This document shows positions 55,864-58,318 of a DNA stretch of 58,318 nt, piece after piece. Each line of letters opens with the position of its first letter. Position 1 is the stretch's first letter. The stretch is from Candidatus Woesearchaeota archaeon. GTDB taxonomy: Archaea > Nanobdellota > Nanobdellia > Woesearchaeales > 21-14-0-10-32-9. Position numbers and translations under genes: made by a program. The notes under the pieces are model-generated. The model was not told the DNA's origin. It was given only the letters and a program-made list of their open reading frames with translations, and did not search any database. The stretch is from the NCBI GenBank assembly GCA_021735165.1, contig JAIPHP010000006.1:1-58318 (forward strand). Direction: 5' to 3'.

Positions 55864-56285
55864 AAAAATAGTTAAGAATGATTACATATATAAAATTTTT
55901 GTTGTGCCCGCGAGCGTCCTTAGGTCTTTCTTTTTCGTATTGTAAAGTATTGTTAGCCGCTTTGCAGTCTTAAGTTTTTTACTAAGAAACACAGATCTTT
56001 AACGTGTTCCATATTGTGTTTCTCTTAATGGATCTCTAGGGCAACACAGATATTTGGGACAAACCTGTTGTGCCCCAAATTATGTTTTTATGTCTGTTTA
56101 GAAGATAAAGTTGTGTAATTGTTTTTTGTGTCTTTGTATGCTAATGGATTTTTGTGTTTTTAAGTATAATTGGAGCTGAGATTTTCCTTGTTTTGTTTAA
56201 AATTATTTTTTTGTTGGGTGTTTTTTTTTCTGTTAGACTAATTATTTCAAAAATTTTATATATGTGCCTCTTGTTTTTTGTTTTT
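55864..56285 (+). other. Intergenic region holding element copy B and two promoters
   Basis: A TATA-like CATATATAAAAT at 55885-55896 can serve the minus-strand hydrolase (22-33 nt from its ATG), and, in the other direction, starts 14-25 nt before element B. After the element, about 190 nt are featureless until ATTTTATATATG at about 56252, the TATA box of the M3 peptidase gene. Confidence 0.55.
55910..56066 (+). repeat. Structured dispersed element, copy B (157 nt) with 9-bp flanking repeats
   Basis: This is the partner of 23262-23420. The hairpins are retained: GTAAAG/CTTTGC (a G-U pair replaces G-C) and AGAAACAC/GTGTTTCT. GTTGTGCCC is found exactly at both borders (55901-55909 and 56067-56075), which looks like a 9-bp target duplication. 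The copies are in the same orientation, 32.6 kb apart. A TATA-like site about 20 nt upstream leaves open the alternative that this is an expressed RNA gene. Confidence 0.75.
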
Positions 56286-58058
56286 ATGGAAGAAAAAAAA
56301 AATATTTGGGATTTGAGTCATTTGCTTAATGGATTGTCAAAAGAAGAGATTGAAAAGAATATTATGAATTTAAGTTCTCAAATTAAAGGTTTGAGAGATT
56401 CTTTGTCTGATGATATTCTACCTTCCGATTTACTTGAAATAATAAGAAAGAAAGAGGCACTAGGAGTTTTTATGAGGCGTCTTAATACTCATCTTAGCAT
56501 GAGATTTTCTGAAAATACTAAGGATCCAGATGTTTTGGCATATAATGTTAAATTAAGTCAACTGTTTACTGATATTCAAAATGACACTATGTTCTTTTCT
56601 CTTTGGTTTATGAATTTGAGTGACTCTGTTGCTACTAAATTGATGAACTCTAATGAATTGAAGGATTACAAATATTATTTATCTAGGATTCGTGAAGAAA
56701 AAATCCATACTATGTCTGAGGAAGTTGAAAAAATTATTAATATTAAGTCTGAGACAGGAGGAGATGTTTTTGCGGATTTATATGATTTATTTACTAGTTC
56801 TTTTAGATTCGAGGCATTTGGCAAAAAAGATCTTGTTATTGAAGAGATAACTTCAAATTTTCAAGATTACAATCCTGAAATTAGAGAGGAGGCATATGAT
56901 GTTTTGCTTTCTAAATTTAAAGATGAAAGCACAATTATTGCTGAAATGTATAAAAACATAGTTGTAGATTGGGATAATGAATCTTTAAAAATAAGAAATT
57001 ATGATTCTCCTATTCAAGTAAGAAATAAATCTAATCAAGTTTCTGATGAGACTGTTAAAGCTCTTATCGATACTGTGAGAAAAAATGTTCATGTTTTTCA
57101 GGAATATTTTAAGTTAAAATATGAATTGAATAAGCGTTTAGGTGATACATATGCTTATTCAAGGTATCATGTGTATGCTCCTGTTAAATCTTCTGAAGAA
57201 AAAAATTATTCTTATGAAGATGCAAAAAGTATAGTTTTGGAGTTATTTAAGTCATTTGATGAGGAGTTTTTTTTAAATGCTAAAAAAATTTTTGATATGA
57301 ATCATGTTCATAGTCATCCAGCGCCCTACAAGAGGAGTGGTGCTTTTTGTTCTAGCCCTTTTCCAGATATGGAACCTTATATTTTGTTGAATCATACTGG
57401 TAAATTAAGAGATGTTTATACTATGGCTCATGAATTTGGACATGGTATTCACGGCATTTTTGCTTCTGATCAGAATTTTATGAATTATGATGAGCCTTTA
57501 GTGATGGCTGAAACAGCTTCTGTATTTGCTGAGATGTTATTGACAGAAAAATTGTTGAAAGATGTTTCTTCAGATAGGGAAAAAATAGCCATTTTGGCAC
57601 GGCAACTCCATGATGAATATGCGACTATTTTAAGACAAGTTTATTTTTGTGTTTTTGAAATATTTGCTCATGATAATATTAAATCCGGGTTGACTAAGGA
57701 TGAAATCGATAAAAAATATTACGCTTTGTTAAAGGAGCAGTTTGGGGATATGCAAATTCCTGAAAAATTTAAACATGAATGGAATTATATTCCTCATATT
57801 CATCACACCCCGTTTTATGTTTATGCTTATGCTTGGGGTAATCTAATGGTTTTATCTTTATATAAAATGTATAAAGAACAAGGTGATGCTTTTATTCCTA
57901 AGTATAAGGATATTTTAAGAGCTGGTGGTAGTGATGCTCCTGAAAACATTTTGAAACGTGCAGGTATAGATATTGCTAGTGAAGGATTTTGGCAGAAAGG
58001 AATGGATCAAATTAAAGAGCAGATTTCTTTGTTAAAAAAATTAAGTGAAAAGATATGA
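56286..58058 (+). CDS. M3-family oligoendopeptidase (PepF-like)
   Basis: A zinc peptidase degrading short peptides in the cytosol. The helical N-terminal region starts MEEKKNIWDLSHLLNG; the catalytic motif MAHEFGHGIHGIF (HEFGH at 382-386) is followed by AETASVFAEML with the third ligand Glu. The 590 residues match oligoendopeptidase F length. The start ATG at 56286 follows the TATA box ATTTTATATATG by about 25-30 nt; the hydrophobic in-frame extension upstream is not used. With the proteasome it could finish protein breakdown to amino acids. Confidence 0.93.
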   Translation: MEEKKNIWDLSHLLNGLSKEEIEKNIMNLSSQIKGLRDSLSDDILPSDLLEIIRKKEALGVFMRRLNTHLSMRFSENTKDPDVLAYNVKLSQLFTDIQNDTMFFSLWFMNLSDSVATKLMNSNELKDYKYYLSRIREEKIHTMSEEVEKIINIKSETGGDVFADLYDLFTSSFRFEAFGKKDLVIEEITSNFQDYNPEIREEAYDVLLSKFKDESTIIAEMYKNIVVDWDNESLKIRNYDSPIQVRNKSNQVSDETVKALIDTVRKNVHVFQEYFKLKYELNKRLGDTYAYSRYHVYAPVKSSEEKNYSYEDAKSIVLELFKSFDEEFFLNAKKIFDMNHVHSHPAPYKRSGAFCSSPFPDMEPYILLNHTGKLRDVYTMAHEFGHGIHGIFASDQNFMNYDEPLVMAETASVFAEMLLTEKLLKDVSSDREKIAILARQLHDEYATILRQVYFCVFEIFAHDNIKSGLTKDEIDKKYYALLKEQFGDMQIPEKFKHEWNYIPHIHHTPFYVYAYAWGNLMVLSLYKMYKEQGDAFIPKYKDILRAGGSDAPENILKRAGIDIASEGFWQKGMDQIKEQISLLKKLSEKI

Positions 58059-58062
58059 TTTG

Positions 58063-58077
58063 TTTTTTAATTTTTTT
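58063..58077 (+). terminator. T-rich terminator after the peptidase gene
   Basis: Runs of six and seven T, separated by AA, lie 5-19 nt after the stop codon, similar to the signal behind the stalk operon. Confidence 0.5.
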
Positions 58078-58080
58078 ATT

Positions 58081-58318
58081 GCGCGTTAGCGCGAGGGGTT
58101 TAATACCCCGACCTGCACAAAAATCTTTGATTTTTGGCATGCCAGAAACTTTGTTTCTGTGCATTTAGGTCGCGATAACAAGCAATCTAAACACGTAAAA
58201 ACTTTTAGTTTTTAGTGCACAGAAATCTTTGATTTCTTGTTGAATCGCGTCTAGGCGACTGAAGCGTAATACTCCATCCTTCAGGGTGGAGATACAAAAA
58301 AATTATCTTTGATAATTT
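58081..58318 (+). mobile_element. Multi-hairpin element, possibly an IS200/IS605-type end, cut by window edge
   Basis: About ten hairpins lie in 238 nt. They include GCGC/GCGC (58081-58092) and GGGGT/ACCCC (58095-58109). A long arm CGACCT-GCACA pairs with TGTGC-(ATTT)-AGGTCG (58109-58119 with 58158-58172) and encloses two smaller hairpins and the palindrome GGCATGCC. CTCCATCC/GGGTGGAG with loop TTCA is at 58272-58291. Four hairpins carry the same loop CTTTG. The CTCCATCC hairpin resembles right ends of IS200/IS605 elements as I know them, but no tnpA or tnpB gene is in the window. Identity is an inference. Confidence 0.45.

Follow-up and report, generated by a model that had tools for sequence, protein, structure and literature searches.

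The 3' end of the window (by which we mean the whole stretch of DNA analysed, 58,318 nt) is very probably the left part of a non-autonomous element of the IS200/IS605 family, about 300 nt long, that is of the PATE type, would be mobilised in trans by TnpA and bears hairpin modules as a second order of structure. We arrive at this reading because the sequence is dispersed over about 37 places, has no terminal inverted repeats, carries TTAT on both sides, is built of co-varying palindromes and has a left end in common with Y1 elements. PATEs of Haloquadratum walsbyi are characterised by the lack of a transposase and of terminal inverted repeats, by IS605-like near-terminal palindromes and by high copy number (PMC3119063). 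The element described here falls under the PATE definition of that species; its mobility is supported, if not proved, and mobilisation in trans by TnpA is what we infer.

The window corresponds to one entire contig (C6) of a 1.10-Mb genome in 31 contigs, and it stops within a dispersed repeat. It therefore holds the left ~240 nt of the ~300-nt element, the rest being cut off by the contig end. The remainder is found at the end of a second contig, C27, which overlaps the end of the window exactly over 120 nt; joined, the two contigs would give an element of 300 nt with the right end GCGATTTTTATTAT, the joint being suggested by contig ends that lie inside the repeat, where an assembler misjoin is possible. 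With TTAT counted as its start, the window copy begins 17 nt after the stop codon of the neighbouring pepF gene. The parts of the element are listed in Table 1.

Table 1. Coordinates, in the window, of the element, its palindromes and modules, and the neighbouring gene.
Feature	Position	Strand	Basis or remark
Oligopeptidase F gene (pepF, Peptidase_M3), neighbour outside the element	56286..58058	+	PF01432 4.1e-43, PF08439
Presumed target/cleavage tetranucleotide TTAT	58076..58079	+	TTAT before TGCG in essentially all full copies, upstream sequence differs
Start of the element proper, TGCGCG	58080	+	
Left palindrome, three-way junction	58078..58186	+	Fold of compact copies from six genomes; outer-arm co-variation
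Outer arms of the left palindrome	58078-58088 and 58176-58186	+	Surround the GGGGT-TTAAT-ACCCC hairpin (58095-58109) and the GACC/GGTC tip
Left-tip double-hairpin module, site GACCT^TTAGGTC	58115..58164	+	Some other copies in this genome lack the module, others have it
Hairpins of the left-tip module	58118-58136 and 58143-58159	+	Feet TGC/GCA, centre GCATGC
Joint double-hairpin module between the palindromes	58191..58241 (approximate ends)	+	Hairpins 58196-58214 and 58221-58237
Right palindrome, 5' part	58243..58318	+	120-nt contig overlap; same layout in uninterrupted copies
Right-palindrome arm AATCGC	58243-58248	+	GAAGC at 58261-58265, paired with GCTTC on C27
Apical hairpin of the right palindrome, CTCCATCCTTCAGGGTGGAG	58272-58291	+	
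Third double-hairpin module, right arm, site GGAGATA^GCTTC	58295..58318	+	Truncated at the contig end; from the joined sequence and the catalogue of hairpins
First hairpin of the right-arm module, AAAATTATC-TTT-GATAATTTT	58295..58318	+	Second hairpin, TAGAAACAA-TCAG-TTGTTTCTA, on C27

The original prediction, made from the sequence alone, was that the end of the window holds four hairpins sharing the loop CTTTG on unrelated stems. All four are present where they had been placed (58119-58135, 58144-58158, 58221-58237 and 58300-58318), and the first two can be extended by one base pair (58118-58136 and 58143-58159). On neither strand of the window is there any other CTTTG hairpin whose arms reach 5 bp, and the clustering of the four is far above chance: when the 238 nt were shuffled 5000 times with dinucleotides preserved, 4997 shuffles contained no such hairpin, three contained one and none contained more, meaning that shuffled AT-rich sequence is not as rich in them, and in any other 238-nt tile of the window at most two hairpins share any one 5-nt loop. 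A coding explanation, named in advance as a result that would count against the prediction, was rejected, as the M3 peptidase gene stops upstream of the element and no gene accounts for the hairpins.

The shared loop is better described as a TTT triloop closed by a C-G pair, and a fifth TTT hairpin, TAAAAACT-TTT-AGTTTTTA (58196-58214), which has T-A as its closing pair, lies between the four. Three second-order double-hairpin modules, at the left tip, the central joint and the right arm, contain the four CTTTG hairpins. The pattern of a constant loop on changing stems is thus real but loose, in that the exact CTTTG is less well kept than T-richness and hairpin form. The proposed constraint on loop and arms is partly supported, in that both arms of homologous hairpins change together and the T-rich loops lie on one strand of the element, but part of the loop sharing is due to common descent of copied modules, and other loops (TGTG, TATT, TCAG, TTCGTT) differ. 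A loop recognised by a protein or an RNA had also been suggested; recognition by a protein remains putative. There is a precedent in the IS605 of Halanaerobium, the left and right hairpins of which have the loop pentanucleotide AAGCT in common, proposed to serve TnpA recognition (PMC7290912).

A DNA search of the same genome with the region revealed copies at about 37 places, in both orientations and with lengths of ~140-430 nt. The shortest (139-142 nt) read TTAT-TGCGCGCTAGCGAAGGGGGTTTAATACCCCGACCTTTAGGTCGATAGCACGCAATCTGAAAATCGCGATAAGCGACTGAGTCGTAATACTCCGTCCTTTAGGGCGGAGATAGACTCGGAGCAGCGATTTTCATTAT, and these compact copies fold as two adjacent imperfect palindromic domains. Copy boundaries are consistent: TGCG is directly preceded by TTAT, the right end likewise carries TTAT (in rare cases TCAT or TTAA), and the flanks are unrelated; one TTAT per side is compatible with no duplication or with a 4-bp duplication. 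The two ends (TGCGCG.. on the left, ..TTTTCATTAT on the right) are not inverted repeats of each other, and the palindromes lie near both ends. No transposase ORF is present, the element being too short to encode one. Deletion derivatives also exist, in which the left tip is joined to the right tip or hybrid hairpins are joined at the loop (L048, L049). A genome of the same family (G010) has one 122-bp copy repeated identically at four different sites.

One copy (locus L063) lies near the start of a gene for a DUF4190 protein, and cutting 240 nt out of it by the TTAT rule restores a normal protein start, MVNKNNGLAITG..., so the reading frame of the gene points to what would be an empty site. 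No relative yielded an allelic empty site: at the window locus the PepF relatives are too distant (47-51% identity), with a different downstream neighbour gene in the same-genus genome G001. The nearest named PepF relatives in GTDB contigs belong to Nanoarchaeota/Woesearchaeota MAGs (48-49% identity), which places the host among the DPANN archaea, probably in Woesearchaeota. As a separate observation, the copy in L063 (G000:C27:9200-12300, at ~1413-1660) is in frame and free of stop codons over its 240 nt (80 codons) right after the DUF4190 start, so the gene could remain readable, with an N-terminal stretch encoded by the element, as in Rickettsia palindromic elements.

The copies are mostly intergenic, and several of them lie between convergent genes, which together with the position of the window copy 17 nt after the pepF stop codon would suit transcription terminators or mRNA 3' stabilisers kept in intergenic regions by the host. 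We give this explanation very little credence, given that copies also occur just upstream of serS and inside the DUF4190 gene start, that the paired arm changes and the TTAT ends span the whole element, and that no element follows pepF in G001. A side effect of the hairpins on transcripts is possible.

Sequences related to the element extend through the order. The exact core GGGGTTTAATACCCCGNCC was found in 9 of 353 genomes of the order, and in three genomes of other families (G062, G125 and G314) it occurs within the same two-palindrome layout, flanked by outer arms that are wholly different in sequence and yet complementary. Between lineages the palindrome arms change together and the inner hairpins GGGGTTTAATACCCC and CCTTTAGG are retained. 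Watson-Crick pairing of the right outer stem is 0.98 for cognate arms versus 0.62 for arms taken from different lineages, and that of the left outer stem 0.88 versus 0.57. Arms were delimited by hand for this scoring because a MAFFT alignment of compact copies misses the outer stems of distant families, and module arms were excluded from the covariation evidence, as they are paired by construction in the scoring. Within the genome of the window, subtypes swap GAGTC/GACTC for GAAGC/GCTTC. Since arms re-pair both across lineages and among these subtypes, structure is kept more than sequence. Compact variants of seven kinds fold into the two domains, with the outer stem of the left domain absent from the minimum-energy fold of one of them (G001_C7). 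The mismatches lean to the same strand (26 G-T versus 11 A-C), although this counts for little because the copies are related.

Compared with the compact form, longer copies carry double-hairpin modules, each a tandem pair of perfect hairpins, 45-60 nt long as a module, with mostly T-rich loops and complementary feet of 3-4 nt (TGC/GCA, TAC/GTA, CGC/GCG or CAC/GTG). Modules are found in the GGGG..CCCC hairpin (TTTAATAC^CCC), at either tip (left, GACC^TTTAGGTC; right, GTCC^TTTAGGGC), where the two palindromes join and in the right arm (GATA^GACTC), and by a rough pattern count these sites are empty in some copies of the genome and filled in others. For example, the joint reads AATCTAAAAATCGCG in the compact copy at C1:43654-43797, where the module is absent, and the right-arm site is empty in L032 and L057 and holds other stems in L054 and L063. 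On the element strand, catalogued copies have 79 TTT loops versus one AAA loop. The hairpin CAAAAATCTTTGATTTTTG occurs at 17 places in the genome, all within loci of the element. At a homologous site TTT is kept on differing stems, ACAAAAGC/GCTTTTGT here and ACAAAATC/GATTTTGT in G001, and the left-tip module of G001 has other stems and the loops TGTG and TATT.

The case for module insertion, as opposed to module loss or spread by gene conversion, rests on the compact form being found across families. The opposite polarity, with long forms ancestral and compact copies produced by deletion of hairpins, we regard as unlikely. Deletion derivatives such as the tip fusions and loop-joined hybrids above are clearly present and favour it, but G010, G062, G125 and G314 have the compact form, which agrees with the left end of the insertion sequence (IS) described below, itself module-free; moreover, the same site holds different modules, and deletions would have had to go precisely back to CCTTTAGG without suitable direct repeats. 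It is conceivable, though on balance doubtful, that the modules are themselves mobile. They would then form a second layer of parasites that targets the exposed loops of single-stranded IS200/IS605-type elements and other structured sequences, the T-rich loops on one strand could be a handling mark for TnpA or another ssDNA enzyme, and elements would grow by recursive nesting of hairpins.

Modules were also encountered elsewhere. A tRNA-Gln(CTG) gene (L060, G000:C24:10700-13700, at 1352-1597, + strand) has a 171-nt intron in its anticodon loop that contains, in antisense, a decayed copy of the tip double-hairpin module (ATGCACAGAAACATAGTTTATGGCATTCCAGAAATTGAAAAATTTCTGAG), and hairpin pairs occur in a neighbouring, different palindromic element in L192; these two cases suggest that modules are not confined to the element described here. 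Other palindromic IS200/IS605-like elements are nested in or lie beside its copies (L037, 1-125; L058, 1690-1795; L192, ~250-450), one of them with its own hairpin pair, and repeats of this sort lie at the ends of several contigs.

The connection to a transposase comes from related genomes. In a genome of another family of the order (G232, locus L140), the same left end is followed by an intact gene for a Y1 transposase of 136-143 aa with an HVH motif and YIRNQ (Pfam Y1_Tnp PF01797, 5.8e-23), downstream of which come a CCCCGACCTTTAGGTCGTGGG hairpin and then GGTCATTTAT. Its closest solved relatives are chains 2xm3/2xma, which we take to be ISDra2 TnpA. G001 has the left end of this IS at seven places, mostly contig ends, one of which reads into the start of tnpA, and the opposite end of one such contig holds a separate 3' fragment of tnpA with a similar, TnpA-type right end. 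In the genome of the window, the IS left end occurs with a 139-nt leader, 81% identical to that of G001, at C16:1-139 and C19:22375-22514. Profile searches of this assembly gave no match to Y1_Tnp. It most likely lost the interior of this IS, the repeat having probably caused the contig breaks at C16 and C19, so that the IS ends at these breaks point to a tnpA in the genome itself. An autonomous element in this assembly was considered and rejected, as only IS left ends at contig breaks are found.

The end of a single-strand transposon of the IS200/IS605 type had been suggested, and the type was right, the left end being common to Y1 elements of the order and the genus; a transposase in the element itself is not present. 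Of the tnpA and tnpB to be looked for beyond the window, a Y1 tnpA was located in the elements of related genomes, with neither Y1_Tnp nor TnpB in the assembly itself. On the right the PATE terminates in ..GATTTTCATTAT, unlike the Y1 elements (..GGAGGTCATTTAT), with a similar right apical hairpin, and the two IS ends in the genome of the window come directly after TTAA, not TTAT, so that these Y1 elements are candidates for the exact mobilising partner. A literature search for IS200 in Woesearchaeota gave nothing relevant.

Two further explanations also start from IS200/IS605-related biology. The region might be a TnpB guide (omega) RNA or another functional structured RNA from the end of an IS605 element, and strong folding, IS605-like apical hairpins and a position just 3' of a gene are what such an RNA might display. 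However, the genome has no TnpB (PF07282), the region has no Rfam match, and the ~37 copies lie dispersed in both orientations, variously interrupted or deleted, one of them in frame inside a gene. This explanation is accordingly most improbable. The guide-type RNA of the original prediction finds no support, and in place of its single large folded RNA there are the dispersed copies. It is also very unlikely that the copies are REP/BIME-like sequences moved by a domesticated TnpA_REP (RAYT), with the paired inverted hairpins as BIMEs. They do resemble these in their paired hairpins with feet, high copy number and mostly intergenic location, and the REP partner is likewise a Y1 enzyme (PMC6006769), but the GT[AG]G (GTAG or GTGG) foot is absent, the feet being TGCA, GTAC, CGCG and CAC. 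In addition, the enzyme related to this element has the short IS200 form, carries a Y---Q motif (YIRNQ) and is encoded within a complete IS that shares the left end, and the hairpin pairs sit inside a larger, TTAT-bounded element.

For the preferred reading, a PATE mobilised by TnpA, a mechanism can be proposed from what is established for Y1 enzymes. TnpA of IS608 and ISDra2 binds subterminal hairpins on single-stranded DNA, and tetranucleotide guides set the cleavage. For Y1 TnpA in general, the subterminal hairpins on single-stranded DNA measure ~20-25 nt and tetranucleotide guides again set cleavage (PMC6006769). By analogy, the TnpA (HUH) of related elements would act in trans on the element, in which the folds of the top strand have been retained. 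Its substrate would be that strand in single-stranded form, as in the lagging-strand template; TnpA would bind the subterminal hairpins and excise a single-stranded circle, and the circle would be inserted 3' of a TTAT. Modules would enter few fixed sites, hairpin tips and joints, where they may be tolerated because an added hairpin leaves the fold of the element intact and thus does least harm. They probably arrived as small mobile units preferring exposed loops of ssDNA structure, and may then have been carried along by the element and exchanged between its two similar tips. Their placement could be due to a mover of their own or to errors of TnpA on hairpin tips, both being possible.

The type of element is already known; what is new is its nested build in a Woesearchaeota-like archaeon, for which the closest precedent is the PATEs of Haloquadratum attacked by SMR-A. 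With PATEs it shares the absence of a transposase and of terminal inverted repeats, near-terminal palindromes, a multicopy state and core or tip-joining deletions (PMC3119063), and in H. walsbyi repeat-mediated deletions of the core occur between the two similar palindromes of a PATE (PMC3119063). It differs in that its palindromes abut, have hardly any core between them and each possess a long co-varying outer stem, in its Woesearchaeota-like host, and in that the related transposon is of the IS200 type (TnpA only). SMR-A is found mainly inside near-terminal palindromes of PATEs and IS605-type transposons, and its mover has been called enigmatic (PMC3119063). The modules described here likewise settle within near-terminal palindromes, in tips, joint and arms. 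SMR-A, however, is ~110 bp long with prominent terminal inverted repeats and similar to HqIRS42/43/55, whereas the modules are hairpin pairs of ~45-60 nt with 3-4-nt feet, several per element, at fixed tips and joints and mutually nested. Because of this different size and build, and the different host, we do not class them as SMR-A, from the description of which they are set apart.

IS608, ISDra2 and the IS605 of Halanaerobium resemble the element in the kinship of the Y1/HUH transposase, in subterminal hairpins, in the left-end tetranucleotide and in top-strand polarity; unlike IS200/IS605 elements, the window element has no tnpA and has extra hairpin pairs, and its right terminus is unlike that of the local Y1 elements. 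Tandem hairpin pairs that act as mobile repeats are also known as double-hairpin or repetitive hairpin-forming elements of mitochondria (PMC2800124). These are of similar size but have no host transposon, and in them it is the stems that are conserved and the loops that vary, the reverse of what is found here. The family represents a two-level derivative of IS200/IS605 in an uncultivated DPANN lineage, with a compact palindromic element and hairpin pairs in its tips and joints, and gives a second, unrelated case of the unexplained pattern of Haloquadratum, small repeats inside IS605-type palindromes. Its natural variants, with the same fold, changed arms and filled or empty tips, offer a ready test of which parts of a hairpin a Y1 transposase reads.

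A second dispersed repeat of ~160 nt, with strong folding and short inverted ends, was noticed in the window at 55910-56070 and in L195, L196, L198 and L200. It reads GTGTCC..TTAGGTCTTTCTTTTTCGTATTGCAAAG...AGATATTTGGGACAC, and its segment CAGATATTTGGGAC has seven exact occurrences in the genome (0 for the control). In L199, one end of this repeat runs straight into a copy of the hairpin element.
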